From Fragum whitleyi (lineage: Eukaryota; Mollusca; Bivalvia; Cardiida; Cardiidae): a DNA stretch of 64,000 bases. Positions 4,776 to 64,000 of this stretch are shown here, in pieces. The DNA lies in contig OX411546.1 in the NCBI GenBank assembly GCA_948146395.1, positions 24,778,449-24,842,448 of the forward strand, read 5' to 3'. Under the pieces are notes generated by a model. That model did no database searches. It was given only the letters and a program-made list of their open reading frames with translations, and had not been told where the DNA came from. Position numbers and translations under genes: made by a program. Within the stretch, counting starts at the first letter, position 1. Each line of letters starts with the position of its first letter.

Positions 4776-4995
4776 TCATTACATATCTTTCCGAAAACTT
4801 TCCATACCCACTCACCTTGGCAATTTCGCGATGTTCTTTTTATTCAATTTTGAAAGGACTGATACAGTTAACGATATCATAAAATTGACATTCATCTCGA
4901 TCAAAACTATTCCAAATCAATTGTACAGCGCTCCATTCATACATTCCAAACTCACACTCAAACCTTCAAAACGCTCCAAACTCATCTTAAACGGA
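4776..4995 (+). mobile_element. Two M1 MITE fragments
   Basis: A right-terminal scrap (4776-4840, with GGCAATTTCGCGATGTTC) is followed by a left-terminal fragment beginning at 4865 (CAGTTAACGATATCATAAAA) that dies out near 4995. The interior hairpin region is absent. They may be remains of two insertions or of one rearranged copy. Confidence 0.55.
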
Positions 4996-6732: not shown

Positions 6733-6768
6733 CAGCCGTGGTGCTGAACTTATAATAATTGAAAAGTA

Positions 6769-7234
6769 CAGGTAACAACATCGTGAAAAAGACATTCATC
6801 TCGATCAAAACCATTCCGAATCACTCGCTCAGCGCTCCATTCACTCATTCAAAACACTCACACGAACCATTCAAAAACGCTCCAAACTCTACGAAAAATA
6901 TTGAATCAACAACGTCATTCAAAACAAATATAAGCTTTAGTAAAATCACGATTTCGCTGACATAATTGAAATTTTAGGTGTCTGATTGGTCCTTGAAGAA
7001 ATAGGAAACTACTTAATAGAGCCTGTATGAAGAAACTACTTATAGAACTTGTATGAATATTTACAAAAGGGATGTAATCAAATATCGCTAATTTTGTTCA
7101 TGCTGAACAAATTTAGCGATATTGGATTACATTCCTTGAATTTCACGCAGAACTCGCACCACAAACTCGTTCAATTTCATTCCAAAATCATTCCAAAATC
7201 ATTCATCATGTCAATTTCACGATGTTTTTTACTG
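6769..7234 (+). mobile_element. M1 MITE, complete
   Basis: Begins CAGGTAACAACATCGTG after TA and ends TTTACTG before TA (7235-7236). The interior hairpin is near 7066-7133. Slightly longer than the reference because of a short duplication near 7010-7050 containing two GAAACTACTTA-like segments. Confidence 0.85.
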
Positions 7235-7236
7235 TA

Positions 7237-11040: not shown

Positions 11041-11633
11041 GCCTGGCCAGAAATCGCTCGCACGTCATACTATCAACATATTGACAGATGGGTGCAGGGA
11101 TCCATACTACAGTTAGTAACATCGTGAAATTGACATTCGCCTCAATCAAAACCATACTACATCACTCACTCAGCGCTCCATTCATTCATTCCAAACACTC
11201 ACTCAAAACGCTCAAACCCATTGAAAATATAGAATCAACAACGTCATTCAAAATAAATTTTGATAGATAGAAATTGATATTTCACTGACATAATTCAAAT
11301 TTTAAGCGTGTAATAGGTCCTTGAAGAAATAGGAAGCTATCAAAAGACATTGTATGCGTATTTTATTAAAGGAAGGTAATCAATATCACTAATTTTGTTC
11401 ATTCTGAACAAAATTTGCGATATTGAATTACCTCCCATTAAATTCACTCAAAACTCGCTCCACACACTCGTTCAATTTTTTTTCTTAATCATTCCAAAAT
11501 CATTTATCTTGTCAATTTCAAGATGTTGTTAACTTCACAGTTAGAACTGAAGATTAGCGGAGCCAGAAATCGCTCGCACGTCATCCTCACAACATAGTAA
11601 CAGGTGGGTGCAGGGATCCATACTACAGTTAAA
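11041..11633 (+). repeat. 75-bp direct repeats flanking an M1 copy
   Basis: The unit containing CCAGAAATCGCTCGCACG, GGGTGCAGGGATCCATAC and TACAGTTA occurs at 11041-11115 and again at 11560-11633, on either side of the M1 copy at 11110-11535. The repeat is far longer than a 2-bp target duplication. It therefore reflects a local duplication rather than transposition. Confidence 0.75.
11110..11535 (+). mobile_element. M1 MITE, complete
   Basis: Begins CAGTTAGTAACATCGTG after TA. It contains the hairpin near 11371-11437 and ends AAGATGTTGTTAACTT, where the last G is mutated. About 426 bp. Confidence 0.87.
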
Positions 11634-14048: not shown

Positions 14049-14875
14049 CAGTTTACAACATCGTGGATACGACTCGAAAAAAAAGCAACATTCAAAATCA
14101 CTCGCTCAGCGCTCCATTCATTCATTCGAAACACTCACTAAAAAAGATAGAATAAGCAACGTATTTTGAAATATCAAAAAGCTAGAAAAAGCGCGGTTTC
14201 ACTGATATAATTTAAATTGTCAGCGTCTGATAAAGGCTTTAAAAAGTAAAAAGAAAGCTACTTACAGTTAGTTACATCGCAAAATTGACATTCACCTCAA
14301 TCAAAATCATTCTTAAACGATCACTCAGCGCTCCAAACATTCATTCCAAACACTCACTCAAACCATTCAAAAATGCTCAAACCCTTTGAAAAACATAGAG
14401 TCAACAACTTCATTCAAAATAAACTTGGATAGAAAAAAAATCGCGATTTCGGTGACATAATAAGTTCTTGAAGAAAACGGAAGTTATCTATAGATTTTGT
14501 TTGCATTTTTTATTAAAGGGAGGTAATCAGTATCACTAATTTTGTTCATCCTGAACAAAATTTGTGATATAGGATAACCTCCCATCAAATTCACTCAAAA
14601 CTCGCTCCACACACTCATTCAATTTCATTCAATAATCATTCCAAAATAATTTTCCATGTCAATTTCACGATGTTGTTAACTGAATAGACTTTTTATACAT
14701 ATTTCAATAAGGGGAGGTAATAAATATCGATAATTTTGTTCATCCTGAACAAAATTTGCGATAATGGATTGCCTCCCATTAAATTCACTCAAAACTCGCT
14801 CCACAAAAACGTTCAATTTCATTTCAAATCATTCCAAAATTATTCATCTTGTCATTTTCTCGATGTTGGTAACTG
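14049..14875 (+). mobile_element. M1 MITE interrupted by another M1
   Basis: The outer copy starts CAGTTTACAACATCGTG and runs to 14264. It resumes at 14683 with ATTTCAATAAGGGGAGG, the internal hairpin and the right end GATGTTGGTAACTG. The intervening 14265-14682 is a complete second M1. Removing it rebuilds the normal family order, so insertion order is certain at the level of sequence reading. Confidence 0.85.
14265..14682 (+). mobile_element. M1 MITE, complete, nested
   Basis: Begins CAGTTAGTTACATCGC after TA and ends TTAACTG. The hairpin with GGGAGGTAATCAG and AACCTCCC lies near 14517-14583. At 418 bp it is one of the better preserved copies and is younger than the M1 copy it sits in. Confidence 0.88.
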
Positions 14876-22914: not shown

Positions 22915-24042
22915 TCATTCGGATAAACAATTATCTCTCACACAGCGCCTCAGTCTGTAAATGTATCTCGCAAAAAGCCCTGGCAAAAAGGTTCTGCATC
23001 TATCTCTAAAATGCGTGTCATATATCAGGTAAATGACAGGTTTTGCTGCATTGTTTAAAAGATAAGACCTTTGCAATAATAGAATAAAAGGATGCAAGCT
23101 TTCGTCAAAACTTAGTGTCGTGGCTTGCAATGCAGTCAAAACCGATATCAGTATATAGCTTAAAACATAAATGAGTGAAATTAGCACCATGCTTAATGAC
23201 TGTTTCTTCGCTCTTGAGCTTGTAAGTCTCTGAGACAATGATATTCTGCATTTTTTGTTCTTTTTCTGGAATCTAGAATCAGCTATGTCTTCATGCAGAC
23301 TGTTATGCGAGCTTCGCTTTTTCTTTATCTGCAAATACATTCTTATTCCAATCAAACAACTCGTCAAAGTAATGGTAGCAAGGCAGATAAAAATAAGGAC
23401 TATCGTCGCACAAATAATCCAGAATTCATAATGTGTTGGTCCCGATTCATATCCTTGAAAACTGCAACTTGAAATAGTCACATTGTATTGCGGTAATGCT
23501 GTAACAGATAAACCATACACTTTGCAAAAAGCTACACTCAAAGCCAATAAAAAAGAAAGCGCGGCGATAAATATACAGATCAGTTTTGCTCTTCGAAGGT
23601 CAAGTTGTTGGCTGTCAGCTTTACAAGCTCTCCTATATCTAACAACCATAAGTGTAGCATGGGTACCCATCATGCTCGATGATAGCCAGAGAATGAGTAT
23701 AATATCAACTATACAAATGTGATCCGTCTTAAAGTGATATTGGTATCGAAGTACAATAATTTGAAATGGTACAATGATTCCACATGTTAGGAAATCATAG
23801 ATAGATAGACAGAACACAAATAACCTGGTGCCTGTTATGTCTGGTTTTGGTTTGTAGATGTAGCACACATGTACATTGCCTATAATTCCGATCACCATGA
23901 TTAAGAACATGTACACGAAAACGGGTATCTGCCTCCTTAGCCGCTCCATGTACACCGATTCTACCAGTTCAGTGTCTGTCATCTGACGTTGAATATTCAG
24001 TGACATCTGTAGAACATCAGTTGTATTATCAAAGGTTTTCAT
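22915..24042 (-). CDS. Orphan rhodopsin-family G-protein-coupled receptor, single exon
   Basis: Encodes 375 residues from the first ATG (24040-24042); a GTG codon just upstream is not used as start in animals. Seven hydrophobic segments are visible, roughly residues 40-63, 73-98, 108-136, 153-177, 204-236, 283-306 and 317-341. Class A hallmarks are Gly55-Asn56 in TM1, LSIYD ending in Asp83 in TM2, and a Cys110 to Cys193 pair for the extracellular disulfide. Potential N-glycosylation sites are at Asn6 and Asn187. The third intracellular loop (about 237-282) is long and basic, suited to G-protein coupling. Two signature sites are altered: the DRY box reads Val134-Arg135-Tyr136, and NPxxY reads Lys334-Pro-Val-Ile-Tyr338. 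No CWxP is seen in TM6. It acts at the plasma membrane; the ligand cannot be deduced. Lack of introns fits the lineage-expanded orphan receptors of molluscs. A TTTATT (AATAAA on the coding strand) near 22510 is a distant poly(A)-signal candidate. Confidence 0.92.
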   Translation of the reverse strand: MKTFDNTTDVLQMSLNIQRQMTDTELVESVYMERLRRQIPVFVYMFLIMVIGIIGNVHVCYIYKPKPDITGTRLFVFCLSIYDFLTCGIIVPFQIIVLRYQYHFKTDHICIVDIILILWLSSSMMGTHATLMVVRYRRACKADSQQLDLRRAKLICIFIAALSFLLALSVAFCKVYGLSVTALPQYNVTISSCSFQGYESGPTHYEFWIICATIVLIFICLATITLTSCLIGIRMYLQIKKKRSSHNSLHEDIADSRFQKKNKKCRISLSQRLTSSRAKKQSLSMVLISLIYVLSYILISVLTALQATTLSFDESLHPFILLLQRSYLLNNAAKPVIYLIYDTHFRDRCRTFLPGLFARYIYRLRRCVRDNCLSE

Positions 24043-24045
24043 CAC

Positions 24046-24539
24046 CTGTAGTTTATAATCACGTGATTAGTTAAGATAGGAAATTGTTTCTACTTCACAA
24101 ATTCGATTTATCTACTGAAGAAAAATTGCTTTTTTCATATGTGAGTATTTTACTTCCAATTCTGTGTATCTATATTGACCTCACAAGGTTTATTTCCTAC
24201 TCATTTCCTACTCTCTCGCATTAACTTATGTAAGAAACAATGCATGTATTATGCACAATGATTTCATTATATAGAAACAACATTATATAATACATAAATC
24301 TTCAGTTTTATCTTTCCGATACTTAAGTGTTTTGTCGTCCAGATTGTTGGTTTCAAGTGAGGAATAAGGATGTATTTAATTTGGGACCAAAGGTTTGTAT
24401 TAATAGCTTTATTCTTTCTACAGATACAATATTTTGGTATCTCTTAGAGGACAGAAAGACAAATCTAAGAGGAAATAATACATATCAACATAACGTAAAC
24501 CTTTAATGTGCGAATGCTTCATGGTAGGGAAGCTCGTTG
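24046..24539. other. Upstream region of the receptor gene, no motif assigned
   Basis: No TATA box or clear promoter could be assigned. On the minus strand an ACTACAG stands directly before the start codon region. It could be a splice acceptor of a 5' untranslated exon, but the preceding pyrimidine tract is poor. Confidence 0.35.
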
Positions 24540-27607: not shown

Positions 27608-30541
27608 TTAAATATGTTTAAATATCTCATGAAATGTTTTCAGAATTACCTTACAAAATTTTGCAACTTTGAAAATAGTTGTTACATCACTCGACGTCAT
27701 AATGCTATGAAAAGAATTCACATTTGGACGCATGATGATATTTCTTGGCAAATAGACTTTTCTGGTATCTTCAAAATAAGTACATTCTAACATATAATGA
27801 AACTCATCACCCATTTTATTCAGCCTGCATAACTCGCATATCCTGTCATCCCTTATGGTCCCTAAAAATCTCCCCATTCAATTGGAAATTTGTGATTTAG
27901 TGATCTGAAGTGGCAAAGAGATTTTGATAGATCATCTGGAAGAATATTAAAGTAATTTTCAAACCCAAAGTCTTGTTTAAAGATCCTATAGTTAAGACAT
28001 TTAGGGCTTTTAAACACTGCATCTTTCCAATCAGATATGTGCATTTCATTCAATTTCATTTTGACAGATTTTGAAATACTGGAAGGTATGTTAGTTTGGT
28101 TTAACCAGTAGCATGAGAAGCCACTTTCTTCAAGTATGCTTTTAATACACATTAACCATTTAGAGTCAAATCGACCAATATTATGCAGAGCTAACAACAT
28201 ACTGTAAAGTTTGCAAGATATTTTATCAGATTTACCATTTAACATACGCTGCCAAAATCCAATCATTCTGGATTTGATTTCAATTGAGATAGGATGTCTT
28301 CCTAATTCACCGTAAAGAATTAAGTTAGGCGTTGATTTCTTTACTTTCAGAATGATCTTATAGAACTGAAGGCATAGTCTTTCAAGCAAATCATGGTTTT
28401 CAAAGCCAGTAACATCTGAACCATATAGTAAAATGGGTTGAACCATAGTATCAAACAATTTCAGCTGAATGTCAATAGGTAATTGTAGCATTCTAGACTT
28501 TTTGAGAATAGAAAACATGGCTTTACGAGCTTGGTCAAATAGTCTTTTGTTGTTTCTTATGAAACGACCATTAAATGAAAACATAGTTCCAAGGTAAACA
28601 AAGCTATCATCAACAGATATTTCTTCGTTATTATAAAAGAATTTTGGGGTATTTTGATCCTTTCTATTGCTAAATACAGTAATTCTGGTTTTAGCAGGGT
28701 TTACCTCTAAATCCCAAGATTTACAATACAAGAACATGGCATTTAGCGCTGCTTGAAGTTCAACTGCAGACTCAGCAAAAATAACTGTATCGTCAGCATA
28801 AAGCAAAATGTATAATTTAAAGTAAACTTCAATATCATCATCACTAAGAAGAATATTAGCCATATCAGAGACATCATCAAGACCATTATAAGCGTGAGAA
28901 ATAAACTCTGATAGATCATTTAAAAATAAAGAAAAAAGTATTGGAGATAGATTCTCACCCTGTCTGACTCCGATATTGCTCGAGAAGGCTACAGACTTTA
29001 AACTTCCCAACCTTACAGAGGATTTTGCATTGGCATACAAATTGTGAATAATCTTAAAACATTTTACCATCAATATTGTTACTCAGCAGCTTCTGCCACA
29101 GATAAGTACGATTAACTGAGTCAAAAGCCTTCTTGTAATCAATAAAGGCGCAAAAAAGTTTTTTACCTCTGAATAAGTAGAGATCTATTAAACATTTTAG
29201 ATTAAATATATGGTCTGTGGTGCCATAGCCTTTTCGAAAACCAGCCTGCTCCTCAGCTAGTAGATTCATATCTTCTAAGTACTTATTGAGTCTATTATTG
29301 AGAACAGCAGTGAACAATTTACCAAAGCAGCTTAAAATGGTAATACCTCTATAGTTGTCAGGGCTTGATTTGTCGCCTTTATTTTTATAAATGGGAGAAA
29401 TAATTCCTTGTGACCATTCATCTGGGACATGACCCGAATCAAAGACTATATTGAACAACTTGGTAAAAGCAGTTAACATTTTGCTCTTAGAGACTTTTAA
29501 AAATTCATTTAAAATAAGGTCGGAAGCGCAAGCTTTGTTCAGTTTAAGGTTATTTATGCTTTTTAAAACTTCTTGTTCTGTAATAGAATTATTCAAAACC
29601 CAATTATGTTGAGAAACTTTAGATAAATCAATATGGTTTAATTGGTCTCCATCTTCAGTAGAAACTGTGTTTAGCTTCTTAAAATGTTCAGCAAAAGTGT
29701 CAAGGGATAATTTTTGAATTGTTGAGGATTTAGAATGATCATTTTTGTTTAGTAATTTCCATAACGATCTGGGATCTGTTGATTTCAGGTTGCGAAGCTT
29801 ATTAATAAATTCTTTTTGGTAGTTTTTAAAGTGCTTGTTAATACATTTTTTGTAAGCTTTACTAGCATTTGTTAAAGCATTTGTATTATTTTGACTATTT
29901 GCTCGTCTACTTAAATTCTTAACTCTACGGAAATTTTTCTGTAAATTTCTACAATCACTATTAAACCATGGACGTGTACATTTACGTTTTTTCTCAAACA
30001 AACTAGGTTTGGGTTGTATTTGTTTTATCATACCTGAAGCATCAGCAGCATTGTACAATAGAGATGAGCATTGAGTAGTTAGAAGCTGCACTGCTTCTTT
30101 AGAGATATCTGAGTTTTGATTATCCATTTGATTAATTAAATCAATAATACTAGCATCATTTAAGTTATCTAAAAATAGATTTTGATCATTTGAATTCCAA
30201 ATAGGCTTTAAAATAACAGCTGCATCATCATTTTTGTTGGACGGTATACATCTTTCGGATTGACAGGATAAAGCGATATGAATGCCACAATGAACATCGC
30301 TCATCATAGGGTCAAATGGTAAAATTTGAAATTCAGTAACAATTCTAAAAATAGAAGGAGATAGAATGGCATAATCAACCACTGTGCTAGATTTACATGT
30401 CTTTGAGCCAAGAAATACAAACATTAAAGCTTCAAGTCTACTTTCTGTGCGTATACATATTACACGATCTATTTTTAGATCGTGTATATTTTTTATCTCG
30501 CTATCGAAGTGAAATGTCATAGAGTGAAACAAATGATACAC
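27608..30541 (-). pseudogene. LINE ORF2 pseudogene: endonuclease-reverse transcriptase
   Basis: Three overlapping open segments encode one broken protein. 29054-30541 covers the endonuclease C-terminus (a VDYAILSPS stretch and an SDVH motif in place of SDH), a basic linker, and RT motifs including FIDYKKAFDSVN with the motif A aspartate. 27862-29073 continues with a VRQGENLSPILF motif, the catalytic YADD at about 28789-28800, and the thumb. 27608-27877 adds a Cys-x2-Cys...His...Cys segment (CELCRL, EFHYMLEC). The first junction looks like one extra T in a T-run near 29055-29060. The second looks like one missing base near 27870-27877. Catalytic residues of the RT survive, so inactivation comes from truncation and frameshifts. 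It would act on its own RNA by target-primed reverse transcription (family knowledge). Confidence 0.88.
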
Positions 30542-30620
30542 AAATAAAGGACAACGTTGAAATTCGTAGAGGTACTTATGACAAAAAACGTGTTTCTGCC
30601 AAGTAAGTCTGTATTTTTAA

Positions 30621-40530: not shown

Positions 40531-41344
40531 CGCTTACCCATGGTTTCCTTTCGTATCTCACACCAGCCCTGCGTTCAGGATGAAAACGTTAGCGAAGCGC
40601 TTTCGAAGTGATACCTCGCTTTGCATGTATGTGCACGTGCAAAGCGGAAACAACAATTCTTCGTAAACACCTTCTTATCATCCCTCTGAGGCCTAATACT
40701 CAACACAAATGTCGGGGACAAATGACTTGTGTTACAATGACTTTTGTCAAATGTCAGATGAAAGCTGACCAAGCCAGATTTCAAACTGATGGTCGGCCTA
40801 AAGAGTCGTTCAATGCTATAAGAGTATTCGTTGGCTATTTCACAGTCGTATACCTGGTATACAACAATAAAGTGTAAGTACATGTTCAAACTGCAAACAA
40901 TACAGGTTAACTTCACTGATTGTGTGAGAAAATTATGTTGAAATAAGAAAACCTGACATTCTCTGTTGGTATTAATGTATGTAGTTAAACACTAGTTTTT
41001 TTGTTGTTTACGTCCGCCATCTTCCATGTTTCTACACTGTACACAAATTTACTACACTGTACCAGCTATACGACTGTGTATCTGAAGGGGTGTTGTAAAA
41101 GACCATATCTTTCTACATTATGCATAGTAAAGAGTATGTAGAGATGTACTGGCTTGTCAGTGGCATTGCTCTGCGAAAATGGGAGGGTGTGGGAACCGTT
41201 AATCCAAGGCTATTAAAATTTAGCTGATCAGAGATTAAAATGCTGAAGTCAAGATCAAGTTTTGGTTGCAGAAGTTTTTACCGAAATGTTGAAGTTCTGT
41301 GTATTTTTATAAGATATAGTATGATTGATCTTTTATGGATGATA
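40531..41344. other. Non-coding stretch, nothing assigned
   Basis: 40568-40660 carries CCTGCGTTCAGGATG, resembling the outer arm of the foldback at 5095. Open frames of 113 and 89 codons on opposite strands overlap each other, and neither shows a domain. Confidence 0.4.
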
Positions 41345-41775
41345 CAATTAGTTACATCTTGAAATTGACACCTCAATCAAAACCATTCTAAATCGTCGCT
41401 CAGCGCTCCATTCATTCATTTCAAACACTCACTCAAACCATTCAAAAACGATCAACCCCATTGAAAAATATAAAATCAACAACGTCACTCAAAATAAATT
41501 TTGGTAGGGAAAAATCGCGATGTAACTGACACAATTCAAATTGTAGGCATCTCATAGGTTCTTTAAGAAATACGAAGCTATCTATAGAACGTGTATGCAT
41601 ATTTTATTAAAGGGAGGTAATCAATATCGCTAATTTTGTTCATCCTGAACAAAATTTGCGATTTTGGATTACCTCCCATAAAATTCACTCAAAACTCGAT
41701 CCACACACTCATTCAATTTAATGCCTAAATTATTCCAAAATCATTTACCTTGTCAATTTCACGGTGTTGTTAACT
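41345..41775 (+). mobile_element. M1 MITE, complete
   Basis: CAATTAGTTACATCTTG at the left, then the normal M1 order with an intact hairpin near 41611-41678, closing CACGGTGTTGTTAACTAC. Confidence 0.86.
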
Positions 41776-42918
41776 ACATTTGAGATGAATTCCAAATTCT
41801 AGTGAATATTTTTAGTGAATGAAAATGGTCGTGCATGGGTAGCTTGAGAAGGTCACGTATAAAATGTTCAGTTTTTTACATCCATCCACCATTTTTTAAA
41901 TCTAATTGGTGACAAAGGTGTAGCCCCCCCCCCTTTAATTCACTGTTTTAGCAATAATTACAAGTTAGCCTTAAAAATAATAATTGAACTACAGTTAGAA
42001 ACATCGTACAATTGACATTTACTCTCTCAGCGCTCCATTCTTTCAATCCAAACACTCGGTCAAGCCATTCAAAAATGCTCCAAACTCACTGAAAATCGTA
42101 TAACAACAACTTCATTCAAAATGAACTTGGACAGAAAATTTTTCGATTTCACTGACATTTTTGAAATTGTAAGCGTCTGATAGGATCTTGAAGAAATAGG
42201 AAGCTATTCATAGAACTTGAATTCATATTTTATAAAAGAATGGTAATAAATATCGCTTATTTTGAACAAAATAAGCGATATTGGATTATAGTCCGTTTGA
42301 CTTCTATTTAGACCAATATTTCGCCGAAAATCTCATAATTGAATTAACGAAACGTATTTTTATCTTGTCATGTCATATTTTCCATCCTATAACATGACGA
42401 ATGTTGTTTTTCAAAAGAAAAATTAATGTTAAATAATGCTTTTGTTCGTCCTTCTACATGTTAACGGTCAGTCTTTCATACCTCCTTACGACCGAATTAA
42501 CCGGAACAGCGCATTGTATAGCCAAAAATAGTTCTGATTTGCATAGGGGCCGAGTCAAAAGTGTTATATTATAAGTGAGCCGTTTTAGTATAAAATCCGG
42601 AATTTGTATAAAATTAAGTTTGTTGAAAATTTTTACTTCCTTTGAATATCAAACTTGAATATATTCTCTCTTTGTTCACAAACCGTTTGACCAGATAATT
42701 GATAACTGTTTTTATCTATTCTGAGATTAACCCCATATTCACATATTTCGACCAATCAAAAAGCATTGTTTAACGCAGTCGTTGGGAATTTCACGAGGAA
42801 AGCTTGATAAAAAGGTGAGTAATAACGGTAAAAATCACGTGATATTTAAGTTAAAGATGACATGACCGTCGATATGCTTATTAGCATGTCTAAAGAAGGA
42901 ATGATATGCATTTCTTTT

Positions 42919-52009: not shown

Positions 52010-52795
52010 TTTATCTCCACTGGCCAAAGGCCACTGGGGCGATTGTCATGGCGTTGTGTCCGTCGTCCATTCGTGCGTCCGGTAGTAAACTTTTTCTTTA
52101 AAAAATCTTCTCCTCAGAAAGTAATGGATGAATTTCAATCAAACTTCACAGGAATGATCCTAGGGTGATCTTCTTTCAAAGTTGTTCAAGAAATTCAGAT
52201 CAAATGACAAACATGGATTTAATGGGCGTGGCTTATTTCCAAATATGGTTAAAAGTCTATAATATTATGTTATTTAGTCGAAACTTTGAAAATCATTTTC
52301 TAAGAATGTAACTGATGGTTTTCAATCAAATTTCACTGGAATGATACTTTAGTGATCCTTTATCAGGCTACTAGAAATTATTGTGATCGGATGAAAAATA
52401 TGTATTTTATGGGCGGAGGTCATTTCTCTATATGTTATTTAGTGGAAACTTTGAAAATCATTTTCTCAGAACGTAACTGATGGTTTTCAACCAAATTTCA
52501 CCGGAATGATCTTTTTGAGTAAACCTTTATGAGTCTACCAAAAATTACTGTGATCGGATGAAAAATATGTATTTTATGGGCAGAGGTAATTTCTCAATAT
52601 GTTATTTTGTGTAATCTTTGAAAATCATTTTCTCAGAACGTTATGGGTGGATATCAATCAAACTTCATTGGAATGATCCTTGGGCGACCCCTTTATCATG
52701 TAGCCAAAATTATTATCATTGGATGAAATATATGTTTTTATTAGCGGAGGTCTTTTCTCTATATGTTATTTAGTGGAAACTCTGAAAATCATTTA
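52010..52795 (+). repeat. Tandem array, ~165-bp period, with hairpin head
   Basis: A head with CCACTGGCCAAAGGCCACTGG (a small hairpin) and GGCGTTGTGTCCGTCGTC is followed by about four units. Each contains AACTTTGAAAATCATTTTCT (52281, 52447, 52613, 52777 variants), GGTTTTCAATCAAATTTCAC, GATCGGATGAAAAATATG and TATGTTATTTAG. The head-plus-tandem-core layout resembles the array at 63430-64000 and pearl-like elements of bivalves (inference). Confidence 0.8.
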
Positions 52796-53884: not shown

Positions 53885-54006
53885 AAATATATATATATAT
53901 ATATATATATATACAAATTGATCAAATATTATATTGAAAAATGTTTCGACACAAGTCCGGTAAGATCCCATGTTAATGCATTCTTTTTTTTTTTTTTTTT
54001 TTTTTC
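53885..54006 (+). repeat. (TA)n microsatellite and poly-T run
   Basis: About 14 TA units at 53887-53913 and a T-run of about 24 at 53982-54006. Confidence 0.9.
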
Positions 54007-55089
54007 ATTTCAAGTTTGTTCAGAAACATTCCATTACAGGTTCTACAGAATGAATTGAGATTAAAACCATGGTACGAGAGATACTTTGTAATTGCACACA
54101 AATGAACTAAATGTTGTTTTTTAAATGTACGCATCCGAAAAAGCACCATGTATCAATAAGTTACTAATTAAATCTCGCAAATGTAGCTGTAGATACGAGG
54201 TTTAGATCCCCAAAGTTTGATCATTATTAAATTTATATACCCCATGACGTATATTTGCATTCTTGTTAATATCTGTGAAGCAGCTCTGAGTGACGGACAT
54301 GAGATTGCCAACGTTAGACGACTAAAATGATATCTCATGATAAAAAGATTTGAAATCAGAGGCACTATTTAACTTATTCGGATTCCAACGAAATTTACCA
54401 ATCGCTGCACTTTTGTAAATGTCGCGGTTTTCAATAAGGATCAAAGACATCGCACGCCGAATAAGTAATTCTTTGCCACTTTGGGGAGTATAACATACTG
54501 ATACACGAATCAACATGCGGGTGTTTAAATGAATGAATGATAACACACAAAATTCCGACAAATTCCTATACTTAGCAAAAGGAAAAAAAATGTTTACATG
54601 ACTTACTGAGGGCTGTAGTGTTACTATAAAACAATATAGAATTAAAATGTTATTATTATATGATTGTTGAAAGAAATATCCGTCGGTTTATGGAATAGGA
54701 TGTCTGTACATAATATGAGGGTTTTATTGGTAGCCAAAAGACAAATGGGTCGATTTCAAAAATTACAGAAATGAGAGAAAGTGTATCGGTGATGTATTGA
54801 GCATTATTCCTTGAGGTTTTCGTGATTAAAGTCGTTCCAATATCATAAGTGACCATTGTCTGAATTAAGAACCAAAAATTGTCGTGCAATTATCTGTCCT
54901 TTGATGAAATGAATGAGATAATATGCGATGGAAACAGAGCCTCTACGTGACGTCACAAGGGGCCTATCTAATCTCGATCGACACCTCTTTAGTGAAATGA
55001 TATGGATTTAAACGTCGCTTTCAATTGTTTTACATTAAAATTCGACGGCTAGTATACCTATCCATGGTTTCTTGTCGTTTCTCACGACT
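54007..55089. other. Non-coding stretch, nothing recognised
   Basis: Open frames of 65-79 codons on the minus strand (54168-54889) show no domain, and none has a credible gene structure. Confidence 0.4.
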
Positions 55090-55920
55090 AAATAGAGGAT
55101 AATCGTTTGTTTAAGTGTAAGATCGATTTATATTTCATTGAGTAAACAACAAAAGCTATATTTTCACGAGTGGCAGAGCAATAAGAAATCCAGTCCATTT
55201 TCTTTTGGATGACAGCCATAGTTCAAGAAGACTTAAGTTGATTATCAGAATAATACATATCAATAGCTTAGCGCAAAACAGTTGTAACTGCCTATATGTT
55301 TATAGGCAGTTACAACTGTTTAATGCTGAGCCATCAGTGTAGTGAATATGAGCTTTTCAAGTTAACCCATTGGTACATGATGATGCTTTTTCACATCCTT
55401 TAAGGAAAGATCTTGATAAAACATTGATGAAATTGTCGGAATAATTTAAGATTTCATACTCTTTTAATTGTTGGTTGTACACTCTTTGGGCAAGTCCAAA
55501 TTTTGGTGTCTGGTGAATGGATTAACCTTCAACGTTTTTTTTTACCCCAGAATCTTGGCTGGTTATTTAATTTAATCACATGTAAGATAAAATCATATAG
55601 CTTTTGTTTTTCACGAAATGAAATAGTAATCGATCTTACTCGAAAAACAAACGATTATTCTTTTTCTTTAATGCAAAAATGAGTAAAAATTTGAAATTTC
55701 TAGGACATATTTTCGTAAAGCGCGTCATTTTGCGCGAGATTGCTTTGCAACGTTCATTGTGACGTCACTTATTTCGCCCCGCATAGATGACGTCAGAAAG
55801 GATGAAATGCACAAAAGCGGGGTGTGGGTTTTTGATAATTTCACTGCTTTTGTGGTGAGTTTATCAAGTGATAATCTACCGTTATTTCTCGATAAACCAC
55901 CGAAAAGCATTAAAGAAAAC
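55090..55920 (-). mobile_element. F5 foldback element, reverse, split at its hairpin apex
   Basis: Reverse copy of 33540-33965. 55090-55179 carries AAACAACAAAAGCTATATT and the hairpin arm. The apex is replaced by unrelated DNA (55180-55593), after which ATATAGCTTTTGTTTTTCAC resumes. CRE-type TGACGTCA sequences lie near 55760 and 55787. Confidence 0.75.
55180..55593. mobile_element. ~414-bp insertion inside F5
   Basis: Unrelated to F5. It contains a hairpin at about 55276-55322 (CAGTTGTAACTGCCTATA and TATAGGCAGTTACAACTG). Element ends and target duplication were not identified. Confidence 0.5.
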
Positions 55921-55984
55921 ATTTTATTTCAGCCACCAGCCGCCCTTCTTTTTTAGGCGTTTCATTTGCCCATTCTGTCGTCAA

Positions 55985-56075
55985 AAATGTGATGAGAGAT
56001 GGCCGAGCCGGAGATCGAACCCACAACCCAATGATAGAAAACCAGACGTGTTACCGACTGTTCTAGCCGGGCTTG
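55985..56075 (-). repeat. tRNA-derived SINE head, reverse
   Basis: The plus strand reads GGAGATCGAACCCACAACCC (box B complement) and GTTACCGACTGTTCTAGCC (box A complement). Beyond 55980 no SINE body of the main family is recognisable. Confidence 0.6.
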
Positions 56076-56813
56076 GCAGTTCTAAACAAAAATGTTAAAA
56101 TTGAAATGCCTGTCCCGAGTTGCCAAACTTAAGATTGGCTTATAAACAGACATGCAAGCTCTATGCAAACCCGTAGTCTGATGGCTGCCTTTTTTCGATC
56201 GCTTCGGCATACCCGTTTCCATAAAAATGTGAAAACATTTTTGTTTTTCGTGATAATGCTACGAAATGAGTGTGACTGAGTAACAAGACGCACTCAAAAT
56301 GAACTTTGGGTATCTCAACACGAGTATGTGACCAAAACCGGAAGTGACAGACGCACTTACCCGGGCTCCATTCAATCGCGCAAAATCCTGCGTCTATGAA
56401 GTCTCTGTCGTTAACCCGACTAGCACATGTCAATAATGTTGGCCTAAAGTCACTGTAAGTGTTTTAAAACAGACCAAGAAAGATGTAGAGTTATTTTTGC
56501 TAAGTATATATAACTTTGACGAGAAAATTTACGAAAGAGAGAACAGCCTGTTAAAAGCATAACAAAATATTGTAGAATGTCGTTGAACCGTTTGACGACA
56601 AGTTACTTCCAATGCAGTTATTTCTAACTTTTGCTTGCACGTAACGCCTTTATAAAAGTTCAACTTCTCGCTTGAATAGTCTTAGAAAGCTAACCAAACT
56701 AGACATTATATTGATAAAAGGGTTCTTCTTTTATGTTTACATAAATGTGAATCGTATATAAAGTACATAATTTTGGTTAACAAAGAGCTAGTTGTTGCAA
56801 CTAGGTTTATTGA
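56076..56813. other. Non-coding stretch, nothing recognised
   Basis: A 90-codon minus-strand frame at 56161-56433 has no domain. Confidence 0.4.
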
Positions 56814-56884
56814 TTGAAAGGGGTTTTACGCCGCTTTTAACAATCTTTCAGTTATACCGCGGCGAATGGAGCACCTAACAATGT
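56814..56884 (-). mobile_element. SINE 3'-domain fragment, reverse
   Basis: TTTTACGCCGCTTTTAAC and ACCGCGGCGAATGGAGCACC match the 3' domain of the main SINE family. Body and head are missing. Confidence 0.8.
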
Positions 56885-58475
56885 ATAAGGAATATTTAAC
56901 GCTACTCTCGGGCACTCGTCACGATCGACGATACTAGTCGGGATTCCTTATAGTCAGGTAGGCAAAACGGTAACGCAGTGGAAAATGGAAAAGAAACAAC
57001 TCAAGGCGAAGTTTTCATGGCATACTCATTTACTACAGGGTCTACCACCCTTACTTCGTCATGGATGGTTACGTACAAAATATACAAATAGCCGGTGTCG
57101 ATAAATGTGGAACGTTCAGGTTTGAACACGGCGGGTGGGGGAGGGCACTTTCTCCCTTTCATACAATGGCTCTCATTCAACTTCATGGATACTAGGGACA
57201 GGACAAGTGCGACAGGATCTTCCTCAATAATTGAATTACATTACTAGAAAATATTGATTAAATAGAATGGCATATCACAAGGCAATCCTTATGACTTTAA
57301 TCTTACTGTCGGTCTCTGCATTGATTACAGTGGGTTTAAAAGATTGGATTAAGAAACATTAAAAGTTTCTGAATTAACTTGGAATAAAGAATTAAATCTT
57401 TAGAAATGGAAATTGTATGACCATACAATTGTTTGGCTACACCTGGAACATCTCATTACCTGAGAAGTTTGGCTTTCTTGCAGTTTTGGAATATTGGTGG
57501 TCTGACTCGATCAGGTGATCTGTGGAAGATGCCGACATTCAAAAACTGCCGCCTTATATAACTTTTCTAAGCTGGCCACGTGACCAACATTGGCCAATCG
57601 GAATGCAGTAAATACAAAAACAATGTGATTCGTCCGCTCAGTAAATCACGTCATAAGCTTACATAGCTAAATAAATCAAACAGCTCTTAAGCTAAAAATA
57701 CAGCTTTCATAAAAAGCAGACATAAAAAGATGAAAGCAGAATGCAGAATTAAGTTCTGACAAAAAGCAGACGCTCTGAATAAACGGCGTAGGTAGACATG
57801 AAAAGTTGTGACATTCCGCATCAAGGTCACTCAACAAGAAGTAACACAACCTAGCATATCACCTACAAGAAAGAATTTATTACGACTCTACGTGTTAATC
57901 TTACTTAATTTCGACATAGAATAATATTCAAAACAGTTTTTCAGTGTATTATTCCTTGTATTGAATAGCAGGCCATGAAAATACCAAAAGTAGTTCCAGT
58001 AGAATGCGAAATGACCAGTCAGATGACAGTGCATAACTGTAAAACAAATAAATGAATAGTAGCCAACAGTTCCAAGCATTTCAATATATCACGAAAATAT
58101 AGTGAAGGGCCGAGATGACCGTTGACCACTGCTACAACAACAACAGTCAGTCAAGAGTTACATTTCTTGATGCGTAATTGAAAGTGAAAGTTTATGGGAT
58201 TGTTTAAGTTTAAAAAGGCACTTAGAATACGGAATATCACTACAGTCCGTTTTAAACACACACAAATAGGACACTAGAGACGTCTACAGTTCATTATTCA
58301 TCGAAGTGAGTGCTTAAGATCGCAGTGGAAGAGTGGAAGTGAATAGGAATCCAGTCTCAAGGTAGGTCAGTTTGTCGTTAGTTTTCGCTGTTCTTCATGT
58401 TGACAGGTGGGGTTTAGCCATGGCTCGCTTCAATATGGCAGATTTCCAGTTGTAGCACGCTATGTTTTGGTAGTA
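56885..58475. other. Non-coding stretch upstream of the transposase locus
   Basis: No supported gene. A weak palindrome TATAAGGAAT/ATTCCTTATA brackets 56883-56955. No promoter elements can be named with confidence. Confidence 0.4.
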
Positions 58476-58700
58476 CAGTTAAAAACATCGTGAAATTGAC
58501 GCTCCACGCATTCAATATCACTCAAAATCATTCCGGAATCATTCCATTCAAAACATTCATCTCACTCGATCAGATCGATCATAAACGATCAAAAACGCTC
58601 AATTTTCCGATCAAATCGATCAGAAACGTTCCATATTTTCATTGGTCGGCTTGATTTTTTCGGTGGTTTTGATTGGTTGAAAAATACTTTTCGTTTAATT
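58476..58700 (+). mobile_element. M1-type left terminus upstream of the transposase gene
   Basis: CAGTTAAAAACATCGTG stands after TA and matches the M1 terminal repeat through AAATTGAC. The next ~100 bp resemble M1 subterminal tracts (CTCCACGCATTCAATATC, AAAATCATTCC), then change to GATCGATCATAAACGATC motifs. Neither an internal M1 hairpin nor a right end follows. This could be the left end of a larger element containing the transposase gene, with the right end beyond 64000, or a truncated MITE. Confidence 0.65.
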
Positions 58701-58761
58701 AAATCCTATTCATTTTCCAACCGTGACGACCCAGATTTTAACCCGCCATATTGATTACAAA

Positions 58762-61700
58762 ATGGACACCGTGAAATTATCGAGAGGAAAGCGATGGCCA
58801 CCTTCTATACGATTAACAGTAGAATATTATGCAGCTAGAGGTTATACTGCTGTCCAACTAGCCAAAATGTTGAGGGTTCGGCACAACTTTGTGGCGTCAA
58901 GGCAGTCGCTTCATGCGGCATTGAAAAGAAATGGCAAAACTCCGATTTATCCACGGTAAGTTGCGTTTCCTCAATTATGCGTATGTTACGTCTTGCAATC
59001 GAAATTTTTAATACTGCAACATACTTTAGAATTAATTTCATGAAACGAGGGACTATCTTAACTACGTTTTGCTATCGTCCCGTTTCTTTCGTACCAATTC
59101 TACTTTCGTCCCGTGTCAGTTCGTGCCCTAAATAGCATAGTCGTCCAATTGCACTTTTGGGAATTGCCAATATTTTCAATCAATACCAAATTAAACAAAA
59201 TTATAACCAAATAAATCCTAATACTAATATAATGGGAATGGGCCTCAGCAATGGAGTTCAACCCAGACAAGAGCGAGGTCTTGGGAATTACTTGCAAGGG
59301 AAGCTGAGGGGTTCTTTTTTACCTAACACACTTAATAACACTAACTTCCAAGGTTACCAAATACCTAGGGGTAACTATCAGGAATGAATAAAACGGGTCA
59401 ACTCCTTAGGGCCAATGACCTTAGATTAATTTCAAGAAACATCCTTTCCTCAGTCACACCAGAAAATTAAGTCTAAAGCCTATATCATTGTATATATCCT
59501 CAGAGTGAGCATTGTTCTTCTATCTGGCACCCTTGGCTAAAATCCTACTTCCTCATATTATGAAAGATCCAAAGGGCTGTCGCATATGTCCATAATAACT
59601 ACACAAGCAGTGTCTCGAGTATGTAAGAATCTCTAAACTGGTAAACCCTCCACCAGCGGCCTATACCTTCATAATTAATATATTTTTCAAGATTAGAAAT
59701 AGCCTAGTATACATTGACTACAACCACCACACCCCTACCTGTGAAATCTTAATTACTGTGTCCAACAGTCCTGCACCAATTATCATTGTATTTCTTTATT
59801 TCCCAGAACAAATGTTTCTGTAAACAGAATTATTTTCATTGCAGGCACAGAAAGGTATTGCATATACACAAAAGTATAGTAGATTTGGAGCTGCATAAGA
59901 ACCCAGAAATATCAACCCAGACACTGCGAGATATTTTGGTGAATGACTTTGGCGTGAGAATTTCCTTGCCGCATATTGCAAGAGTGAGACGAGAACTTGG
60001 ATGGACTGCACGCAAGACACAGTACTGCCAAATGATAAGTGCTAAAAACAAAAAACATCGCATAGAATGGTGCCTTCAAAAGCTTTCCGAAGAGGACAGA
60101 TTCCTGAACGTCATTTTTTCCGATGAAACATCAATAGAGATGTCATCATCTGGGAAGTTGTTCTTCTACAAACCACGTTCAGAATTTGAAAAACTGCCAG
60201 CCAAAGCTCCTAAACCGAAACATCCATACAAGGCAAGTATATTCTTAGTCTAACTTTATTGTTAGAATCTTAGCTATAATGATAAAAAAATTCTTTTACT
60301 AAACAGTTCATGATCAAAGTTTATTACACAAACGTCGAACTTTGGAAAAAGACAAATGTGGTACGTCAAAAAATTGGCTAAATTCTTTTGACAGACTTCA
60401 CAAAAAGTATTTGATATATTTCTGTAAATAGACAAATGGAATGTCAAAAAGATTCTTCCGTTTCATGAATATGCATTGAGGTTTTCCCATTTTATTTGAA
60501 ATGTTATCACTGTACCCTCAAATAGTCTTTAAATGTGCTAAAAAGAGAATTAATTAGTGTCTTAATATATCAATGTAATCTTCTTGAGGTTGGGAGAATT
60601 TATCATGACAAGGCTTTGCAGAGTCATGAGATTTTCTCATAGCCGAGACCTGGGCCAGAGGTTGTAAAATTAAAATCGTAATGCTGTTTTTGTACTCATG
60701 TACTAATGTATTATTCAAAGATGATATTTATAAGTTGTTATGAATAACAACTTATTAATATTGATTATTATCTTTTATTTTCATACATTTATTTAAATTT
60801 AAAATTTGAGAATATTCTCAGTTTAGCCTGAGAAAATTTTTATAAACTTGGGCCCAGATACCATTGATATTTTAAGACACTAACATATTATTCTATTTAT
60901 CAAGCAATTATCTACCAAGGTTTGAAAATGTTAAAACTGGGAAATAAAAGGAAATTGTTGGAAAGATTGAAATAATATTGTAATGTTATCAACGAACATT
61001 CTAGGACCCCCAAAAAAATTAAACATCCAAGAGAATAGTCCAATCTTTTTGAACGGTTTTATTGAATTTTGTAGTCAATACTAATTATCTATTTTTGCCT
61101 TTAGTTAGAAATCCTAACATGAACATATTTGAAACAACAGTTATTTGTTCCTAGATAATGCTTTGCTTGAAACTAGCCTAGGCCTATATTGTAGGCCTTC
61201 TTGTAAACATTCGCAAAGGGTTCATAGAATTTTTCTTGGCCTGAGGTTGCTCATCGTGCACTTGAATTAAAAATACCCAAAATAAACTCAACCAAACATT
61301 AGAAAATTCAAACCTTAGAAAACATACTGATTATTCAAATCTTACCTTCATAGAATGAAATTATACAACATGAAACCCGGTATCTTACTGAAAACGCATT
61401 TTGTCACAGACCAGGGTTATCCTTATTTCTCAACACAATTATTCTTTCTACTCTCATCAAATATCTTAAAATCAAATTGAAAAACTTTAAATCTGGATTA
61501 TAAAAAATCTGCATGGTGAAAGCTTTTTCAGTCTGTTCCTGTTTTTTTCCAAAGTAGAATTGTAGAAAAAAATACTAAAATTTGAACAATTTCAACTGGG
61601 CAATTTTGACAAATTTTGTTAAAAGTGAGATTTTTGGAACGATAAAGATGTGAATATTGAGTTCAACCTTCTCATATGTCTTTATATTTACTTACAAAGT

Positions 61701-63275
61701 CTTTGATATAGCATTTGCTTTATGACCATTCATTAAACTTCACGTCTTGTGTTAAATCGCATTTCACTTTTAAATGGATGAAGGGATGTTTGTAGAAAGC
61801 GTGCCAAATCGCCATTTTTTTCAAAGTCGTGGTCAAGTAAAAATATATATGCTGTTGAGATCACGCTTACTCACAGTTTATACTATATATAACAAAATTT
61901 ATTCACTTATCTTAAAAACGCTATTAGCCTCTTCTACCTTAAAGCAAATTATTAATGTTTCTACTTGTTCCTTGGGGCAATTCCAGTGGAACAATGATTA
62001 GCCCTCCTGGGCCTAAAGTATTTCTTGTTTTGACATCTATGAATATGTATAGGAACAACAGGCCAAATAATTTCCCCATTATCAACTCCATTTCAGGTTC
62101 ACATGTGGGGAGGAATATCATACAAAGGGAGAACGTCTTGTTGTATCTTTACTGGGACGATGGATTCCTTAATCTACCAAGAAATACTACGATGTAACTT
62201 AATTCCATTTGTTGAGAACAAGTATCCCTCTGGTTTCAGACTTTATCAAGTAAGTGTTAAAAGGTTTTAGGTGAAAATATTACTTTATCCCTCCAGCAAG
62301 TAATAAAGGGAAAAACGACCACAACCATGTAAGATTGCATCTATAAAAGTAGTTGGCCACATGTGACGCTTTCTACAAGACAGACTAGTCATATATAAGA
62401 CATACTTTTTGTCTAGCCTGCTTGGTTGGACAATTACTCCTTCATTTATGGATGGTTTTCAAAATAACTTGGCCAGGGGTGTAGAAAAACAAGATCTTTT
62501 CACTTGTCCTTTGACAAGTTGACAGTCAAATGTAATTTGTCTGACTTGTTTGATAGTTGTCAAAATTTTCCTTTACTTATTTTGTCTATTGGCAGAACTT
62601 TTTGAGCTGGAAACAAATTAATGTAAATCTTTTAGAAAATAAGAGAAATTGCTTTTGAAAAGCTATTTTTCTTGTTTTCTTAGATTTTCTTTTTACACCC
62701 CTCTCTTTTATTTACCTTGTTAGTCATTTCTTTCCTTGATCTGTCCGCAATGAAAACTTTTGTCACATTTTCTCAGCAACTCTAAATCATATCAACGTGA
62801 AATGTGGTAAGATATATCGTTTTAAGGTCCCATATATTGAAACTTGAAACTGCAGAGAATATTAAAGGTTGTCTATTTACTGTTTAGATAAAGATTTGTT
62901 TTAATTGTCTGTTCTATTTAGATATTGATTGATTTACAATGATACATAACTGAAGCGTAAATCTTTTTACAGGATAATGATTCCAAACATAATAGCAAGT
63001 CCACTGAAGAATGGATGCAGTCTGTTGGTATACTTGATGCTGTAATGGTTACACCAGCTTCCTCTCCAGATTTGAACCCCATTGAGAATGTTTGGGCTGC
63101 TCTTAAAGATCATCTCCATAGAAATGTGAAACCAAGGACTAAACAAGCCCTAATTGATGGAATAGTGAACTGGTGGGAGATGCTTACTCCGGAAAAGTGT
63201 TCAAGATACATTGATCATATTCATCGTGTTATCCCACAAGTTGTTTTGAATAATGGTGGACCAACTGTGTTTTAA
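58762..63275 (+). CDS. Tc1-family DD34E transposase gene, four exons
   Basis: Exons 58762-58955, 59845-60232, 62097-62249 and 62973-63275 join to 1038 nt, encoding 345 residues, the usual Tc1 transposase size. Start: AAAATGG is a good context; the frame is also open upstream without ATG. Exon 1 encodes the first HTH (about residues 15-55). Exon 2 encodes a basic linker, a second HTH (about 86-118, HIARVRRELGW) and FSDETS with catalytic Asp158. Exon 3 begins with HMWGGIS. Exon 4 begins DNDSKH (Asp248) and holds PDLNPIENVW with Glu283, exactly 34 residues after Asp248. Intron 1 is phase 2, introns 2 and 3 phase 0; all junctions restore family order. Such enzymes bind terminal repeats and cut and paste DNA in the nucleus (family knowledge). 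Introns of 889, 1864 and 723 bp are unusually large for a mobile Tc1, which suggests either a host-like (domesticated) gene or a large autonomous element. No canonical poly(A) signal was seen directly downstream. Confidence 0.88.
59228..59720 (+). pseudogene. Decayed CR1/Jockey-like LINE fragment in intron 1
   Basis: In shifting frames the stretch encodes MEFNPDKSEVLGIT, then KYLGVTIRNE, then RNILSSVTPE and further C-terminal RT thumb-like segments, interrupted by stops and frameshifts. It is unrelated in frame to the flanking transposase exons and lies wholly inside intron 1, so it was inserted into, or carried along in, the intron. Confidence 0.7.
60233..60238 (+). other. Non-canonical GC splice donor (intron 2)
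   Basis: The exon 2 boundary reads ACAAG|GCAAGT, with its acceptor TTTCAG|GTTC at 62097. GC-AG introns with otherwise strong consensus (AAG|GCAAGT) are the main minor donor class in animals. No GT alternative preserves the frame between HPYK and VHMWGG. Confidence 0.75.
60585..60660 (-). repeat. H3 palindrome fragment in intron 2
   Basis: GAGGTTGGGAGAATTTATC and the apex CAAGGCTTTGCAGAG, followed by ATGAGATTTTCTCA, match a diverged H3 palindrome in reverse orientation. The outer half of the element is missing. Confidence 0.6.
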
Positions 63276-63429
63276 ATCTACTTTTATTTCAAACAAAACT
63301 AGAGAATTAATAAGCTGTGGGTGTTTTTTAAAGAGTATGGGTATCAACTGCTTAAGTTGTCCACAGGTGCAAGTTGTCACATAAAGCAGTTTCTTTTGCT
63401 AGTTTTTCTCGCCTATGTGCAGGATTGTT

Positions 63430-64000
63430 TTTGTTATCTCACCTGAGCCCGAAGTGCTCAAGGTGAGCTTTTGGGGCAACTTGATGTCTGTCGTGCACTG
63501 CTTGTCAACATTTACCTTGTGGACACTCTAGAGGCAATAATTCCAAGCCCAATCAACCTGAAAATTGGCCAGAATGATTATCTTGATGTAATCTCGATCA
63601 AGTTCAAAATTGGGTCAAGTGGGGTCAAAAACTAGGTCAAGGGGTCAAATCTTTGAAAAACCTTGTCTACACTCTAGAGGCCATATTTTTAGCGTGATCA
63701 ACCTGAAAATTAGCCAGAATAATTATCTTAATGAAATCTCAGAAAAGTTTGAAATTGGGTCAAGTGTGGTCAAAAACTATCTACGGGGTCAAATCTTAGA
63801 AAAATCTTGTGGACCCTCTCGAGGCAATAATTCCAAGCCCAAGTTACCTGAAAATTGGTCAGAATGATTATCTTGATGAAATCTCGGACAAGTCCAAGTT
63901 AGGTCAAGTGGAGTAAAAAAAACAAGGTTACAGGGTCAAATCTAAGAAAAACCTTGTGGACACTCTAGAAACCATATTTATAGCCAAATCAACCTGAAAA
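63430..64000 (+). repeat. Tandem array, ~146-bp period, runs off the window
   Basis: The head has TCACCTGAGCCCGAAGTG and TCAAGGTGAGC (a hairpin). Units then begin CCTTGTGGACACTCTAG (63515), CCTTGTCTACACTCTAG (63661), TCTTGTGGACCCTCTCG (63805) and CCTTGTGGACACTCTAG (63952). Each has TCAACCTGAAAATTGGCC-, GATTATCTTGATG- and GGGTCAAGTG-like segments. At least three units. An 85-codon frame (63610-63867) is a by-product. The style is common in bivalve genomes (established impression, not verified here). Confidence 0.85.

Follow-up and report, generated by a model that had tools for sequence, protein, structure and literature searches.

The 64,000-nucleotide stretch of the bivalve Fragum whitleyi genome analysed here (contig OX411546.1; hereafter the window) contains, close to its right-hand end, a Tc1-like transposase gene split into four exons. 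This locus is very probably an intact member of the Tc1-like elements with introns (TLEWI), a DD36E group of bivalves, as matched to the description of that group. We take it for one more case of a known oddity, not for something new in kind. The assignment builds on an uninterrupted coding frame, on the spacing of the catalytic residues, on a well supported clade of DD36E relatives and on intron positions that are matched in some of them.

Gene structure and catalytic triad

Joining of the four exons gives 1038 nt encoding 345 amino acids and a stop, with zero internal stops or frameshifts, and the coding exons extend over 4.5 kb with three introns between them. The initial annotation had proposed this four-exon frame of 345 codons, and the exon joining bears it out in full. 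It had also described good splice consensus, which is true of introns 1 and 3 (GT-AG) but not of the donor of intron 2, where the boundaries read AAG/GCAAGTA...CAG, i.e. GC-AG type. The transposon debris that it saw in the introns stands up only in part. Specifically, intron 2 carries an inverted repeat of 28 nt (89%, 60554-60581 and 60856-60883, arms 274 nt apart) that looks like a miniature inverted-repeat transposable element (MITE), whereas the decayed reverse transcriptase in intron 1 is weakly identified from a motif seen by eye; that stretch has no Pfam match at E 10, and comparison with the four reverse-transcriptase-like frames of the window gave no real match. A clean frame among such introns was further taken to speak for selection. 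This is plausible but carries little weight, since the frame is indeed uninterrupted whereas the debris has only a tentative identity.

The transposase frame is not a chance product, because the window protein matches Pfam DDE_3 (E 3.1e-16, above cut-off), the catalytic domain of Sleeping Beauty (PDB 5cr4, E 9.2e-20) and, with E values of 1e-3 or lower, 396 homologues, the best of them at E 3.2e-112. The NCBIfam IS630 profile, for which the cut-off is 100 bits, reaches 91.7. As to the two helix-turn-helix (HTH) segments of the initial annotation, HTH_Tnp_Tc3_2 stays under its 31.5-bit cut-off with a score of 26. For homologue P0002, which is 52% identical to the window protein, the AlphaFold model predicts a pair of three-helix units at the N-terminus (helices 12-59 and 71-116, the first triplet being 12-23, 28-39 and 45-59). 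The model has a mean pLDDT (predicted local distance difference test) of 90.7 and a pTM (predicted template modelling score) of 0.72. A Foldseek search of the PDB matches its core best to Sleeping Beauty (E 1e-13), followed by Mos1 (3hot, E 4.8e-12). An HTH part together with a DDE RNase-H core, the hallmark of IS630-Tc1-mariner transposases, is thus found between the profiles on the window protein and the model of P0002. By this model exon 1 would correspond to the first HTH, exon 2 to the second HTH and D158, exon 3 to a strand-helix block separating the two aspartates, and exon 4 to D246, E283 and the C-terminus.

As judged by alignment, the catalytic triad is D158, D246 and E283, with 36 residues between the second D and the E (DD36E). 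The D248 and the DD34E spacing given in the initial annotation had to be abandoned. When the protein is aligned with Sleeping Beauty, both DND motifs coincide and an insertion of two residues precedes the E in the window protein; the first D of DND, D246, is therefore the catalytic one. Note that Sleeping Beauty is DD34E when counted from its first D. Moreover, all three residues of the triad stay constant across 52 aligned homologues, in an alignment made without the window row and numbered after P0002, whose numbering is identical to that of the window protein there. At position 246 all 52 have D; at position 248, 45 have D and 7 have A. Among the 14 DD36E rows (window included) 246 and 248 are both invariant, and D158 is replaced by N in one row, P0015. 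The choice of D246 over D248 thus comes from the wider family, because the DD36E clade taken alone is invariant at both positions. DD34E/Tc1 sensu stricto was ruled out as a class, since 36 residues separate the second D and the E.

Relatives and partly shared introns

Among the best 120 of the 396 homologues, the D-to-E spacing is 36 in 18 proteins and 34 in 97; the remaining 5 have another spacing or do not cover the region. The first D is N in P0015 of the spacing-36 set and I in one spacing-34 row. Eight of the 18 spacing-36 homologues carry a species name, and all of these are Mytilus or Pinctada (Mytilus edulis, M. coruscus, M. galloprovincialis and Pinctada imbricata); the other ten are Logan proteins. 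Further pieces came from a profile search, among them P0138 of Mizuhopecten yessoensis, which ends before the second D and is not one of the tree rows. The tree was made from 60 of 121 rows (at least 255 aa; ranks 1-50 and every third of 87-120), with the columns of the D-E loop excluded. The window protein and 16 other spacing-36 rows share one side of a branch with support 100/99, and P0005 and P0011 are nearest to the window (100/97); an earlier quick tree is concordant. Viral contigs searched for relatives yielded none, and Rfam at gathering scores gave no match.

Introns 2 and 3 are, on protein alignments, real and at least partly shared with relatives, because some relatives lack exactly exon 3 and other proteins enter or leave an intron at the same points. 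In P0011, P0014, P0023 and P0076 (4 of the best 120) ...YK joins DNDSKH... directly, which is the exact loss of the 51 exon 3 residues; intact DD36E relatives have 51 residues there in 8 of 9 cases and 53 in P0007. The junctions were checked in 25 DD36E-type proteins of 140. P0138 stops at ...AYK/VK, matching the intron 2 donor, P0128 reads past ...LYQ/V at the intron 3 donor, and P0139 starts from the intron into ...FFQ/DND at the intron 3 acceptor. P0127 and P0140 show the same behaviour at intron 3 by eye. P0126 was dropped as evidence for the intron 2 junction, as it starts at a Met inside exon 3. The initial annotation had suggested looking for the same intron positions in related bivalves, and those of introns 2 and 3 were indeed recovered in some of the homologue proteins.

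P0005 and P0011, both from Logan, are identical at 196 of 197 residues in exons 1-2 and at 47 of 48 in exon 4, but the 51-residue block of exon 3 is present in P0005 alone. From their sequences they look like two forms of one gene. The relatives without exon 3 may have lost the exon, may skip it naturally or may owe its absence to the way they were annotated. The whole frame also stands on several 1-2 kb contigs from Logan, and these could be transcripts or intronless copies alike.

A number of observations weigh against an intact, intron-bearing member of a known group. The closest listed relatives, P0001, P0002, P0003 and P0005, are only 51-53% identical over 86-99% of the window protein; P0009 is 57% identical across 263 residues, and for P0126 the value is 74% across 149 residues (exons 3-4). 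The GC donor of intron 2 is possibly a weakened site, and the gene model was built from DNA and homologue proteins. Of the relatives without exon 3, three (P0014, P0023 and P0076) come from gene prediction in databases, and one of these, P0014, has an internal duplication. Moreover, exon 2 continues straight into exon 3 in P0127 and P0128, where intron 2 is missing. Intron 2 may not be universal, or these two proteins may stem from part-spliced RNAs.

A candidate element end, neighbouring MITEs and possible mobility

A candidate Tc1-type end (58474-58500) lies 261 bp upstream of the ATG and points towards the gene. To judge by its sequence it may be part of the transposase element. The end resembles those of a MITE family that has 27-bp terminal repeats (TA-CAGTTAA...) and subterminal stretches rich in CATTC. 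This family has 11 paired copies, hand-picked from 19 pairs listed, and partial ones in the 64 kb. The paired copies are 396-500 bp long with a consensus of 441 bp. In a scoring of 33 ends, the terminus at 58474 agrees at 26 of 27 positions; one end has 27 and three others 26. Its subterminal match is the poorest of 18 left-type ends (56/84), a score reached in 0/500 shuffles. A TIR (terminal inverted repeat) pair was not found between 54000-58761 and 63276-64000, a search in which 725 bp of 3' flank are visible (best score 23; shuffled mean 24.3, maximum 31, 50 shuffles). No 3' TIR matching the MITE end is present in 63276-64000 either (best 15/27). The MITE interior has chance-level matches only to the gene, its introns and the 3' flank, and the interval from the MITE-like end to the ATG (58594-58761) scores 12.5 against it, under the shuffled median of 14. 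There is no second transposase copy or fragment within the window.

Our results suggest that the locus is, or lately was, a transposable element and not a host gene, a leaning that we hold by a modest measure. In its favour are the intact triad, the candidate end, the several transposase paralogues that each named species carries and the relatives that are 90-97% identical to one another (P0001/P0070, P0007/P0018, P0007/P0139, P0011/P0126, P0014/P0070 and P0018/P0139). Such near-identical protein copies look like those of transposable elements, and some are possibly alleles; P0018 and P0139 are altered in the SPDLNPIE motif. A co-opted host gene, stripped of its ends and retained in a host role, which would explain the introns and the low copy number, is a serious contender even if we would not choose it. 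It would fit the lack of a TIR pair in the searched flanks and of another copy in 64 kb, the intron positions common to named bivalve proteins, the clean frame and the ordinary gene-like introns. The short visible 3' flank weakens the point about the TIR pair, however, and the upstream Tc1-type end with its TA, the multiple paralogues and the near-identical copies in relatives all speak against co-optation. It is unlikely that the gene is simply a young neutral copy, i.e. a recent insertion with an intact frame and no selection at present. A recent insertion would require no selection, and a little-diverged frame can stay open by luck, as 161 of 3105 possible single substitutions would create a stop, but no sister copy or fragment lies in the 64 kb, and the intron inverted repeat and reverse-transcriptase-like debris, the latter weakly identified, suggest age.

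Whether the gene belongs with the neighbouring MITEs is a related question. We regard as doubtful the idea that it is their autonomous partner, an element running from the TA at 58474 to beyond the window end and sharing its terminal 27 bp with the ~440-bp MITEs. The end at 58474 faces the gene, and the window holds 11 paired MITE copies. Its near-perfect terminus beside the poorest subterminal match is unlike an evenly decayed MITE copy and is the pattern expected of an autonomous partner that has in common with the MITEs just the end which the transposase recognises, but this contrast was noticed post hoc. With 18 plus-strand ends in the window, one would fall within 300 bp upstream by chance in about 8% of cases (18 x 300/64000). 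Left-end-only MITE pieces occur at 4863-4985 and 1610-1748 with no second transposase copy, and both the lack of a 3' TIR in 63276-64000 and the chance-level similarity of the MITE interior tell against the partnership. The end at 58474 may instead be a stray or divergent MITE end. If the autonomous-element explanation is true, a right-hand end GTCAATTTCACGATGTTGTTAACTG-TA, inverted and with a TA duplication, is expected beyond 64000.

Under the transposable-element reading that we favour, a four-exon spliced mRNA would give a transposase with two HTHs and an RNase-H-fold DDE core. By analogy with Sleeping Beauty and Mos1, the HTH pair would bind the terminal repeats, and D158, D246 and E283 would cut and join DNA at TA sites. 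A more far-reaching scenario can be imagined, in which the intron-bearing DD36E gene drives the dense MITE family, the class keeps Tc1-type ends and moves, and skipping of exon 3 produces a catalytically dead two-HTH repressor; we consider it quite improbable. According to the P0002 model, a protein lacking exon 3 would retain the two HTHs but be short of part of the core, and it might then act as a repressor. To our knowledge, Tc1/mariner transposases are intronless as a rule, and we know of no intron-based self-regulation of this kind described for Tc1 elements. Do introns signal domestication, or can mobile elements tolerate and even exploit them? A lineage in which introns are shared and the triad is intact is well suited to test this, and in this genome the question can be tested directly through the MITE link and the forms without exon 3.

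Table 1. Features of the transposase locus and of the related MITE family, in window coordinates
Feature	Position	Strand	Description
Candidate 5' terminal inverted repeat with TA	58474..58500	+	TACAGTTAAAAACATCGTGAAATTGAC; 26/27 to MITE terminal sequence
Subterminal CATTC-rich stretch	58501..58593	+	Resembles MITE left end, 56/84; similarity ends after it
Exon 1	58762..58955	+	Residues 1-64 plus 2 nt of codon 65; ATG and predicted first HTH
Intron 1	58956..59844	+	GT-AG, 889 nt, phase 2; decayed reverse-transcriptase-like stretch inside (by motif only)
Exon 2	59845..60232	+	Predicted second HTH and catalytic D158; residues 65-194
Intron 2	60233..62096	+	GC-AG, 1864 nt, phase 0
Exon 3	62097..62249	+	51 codons, interval from first to second catalytic Asp; in-frame block missing from four homologues
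Intron 3	62250..62972	+	GT-AG, 723 nt, phase 0
Exon 4	62973..63275	+	D246, E283, C-terminus, stop
MITE examples	1009-1447, 6767-7236, 11108-11537, 14263-14684, 41343-41778		Family spread over window 1-58600

Other features were noticed in the surroundings. Downstream of the transposase gene, a 145-bp tandem repeat (63514-64000, 3.4 copies visible) reaches the window end, and a 167-bp tandem repeat with 3.2 copies lies at 52266-52794. On the minus strand, 22915-24066 holds a 383-residue stop-to-stop frame resembling a G protein-coupled receptor, the best match of which is 24% identical (HCRTR2-named, Mytilus coruscus). Two long overlapping frames at 27862-30616, also on the minus strand, look by eye like the reverse transcriptase of a non-LTR (long terminal repeat) retrotransposon split over two frames.

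Comparison with known systems

Sleeping Beauty shares the DDE core with the window gene, by sequence for the window protein and by Foldseek for homologue P0002, but the window gene differs in its three large introns. Mos1 is similar in overall architecture according to Foldseek with the P0002 model, whereas its identity to that model is about 16%. Mos1 is DD34D.

Incomer (DD36E/IC) is closer in its catalytic spacing. It is a single-open-reading-frame element of ~1.2 kb with 22-32-bp TIRs and a transposase of ~346 aa, and the paper describing it names insects and arachnids only as invertebrate hosts and contains neither "mollus" nor "intron" in its main text (PMC6875036). The window gene has the same 36-residue spacing and a similar length (345 aa), but it extends over 4.5 kb with three introns, and the two are set apart on description. 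Where Incomer has paired TIRs with a TA target site duplication, the window has a candidate left end, and a right one did not turn up within the 725 bp of 3' flank that are visible. The host range of Incomer and its single frame in an element of ~1.2 kb make membership of that family highly improbable.

The TLEWI elements agree best with the window gene. The title on Tc1-like elements with introns (Puzakov, Puzakova, Cheresiz 2020) is cited in PMC10379824, PMC10294476 and PMC8533490, and a passage in the first states that TLEWI carry 3-5 introns (PMC10379824). Three introns were modelled in the window gene, positions 2 and 3 with support from homologues, and its species-named spacing-36 relatives are molluscs; spliceosomal introns in a transposase gene are thus common to both. 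Puzakov and colleagues reportedly found TLEWI to be DD36E, low-copy, TIR-less and restricted to Bivalvia, and are said to have proposed their co-optation. The D246-E283 spacing of 36 in the window gene agrees with the first of these traits. As to the others, the 64-kb window holds a single copy, no TIR pair was found with 725 bp of 3' flank visible, the species-named spacing-36 homologues are Mytilus or Pinctada, and the candidate Tc1-type end upstream is a difference. The initial annotation had suggested either a host-retained transposase or the source copy of an unusual large element. An intact Tc1-like gene is indeed present, but its class is DD36E, and intron-bearing Tc1-like elements of molluscs have already been published as TLEWI, with which the window gene would be identical in kind.

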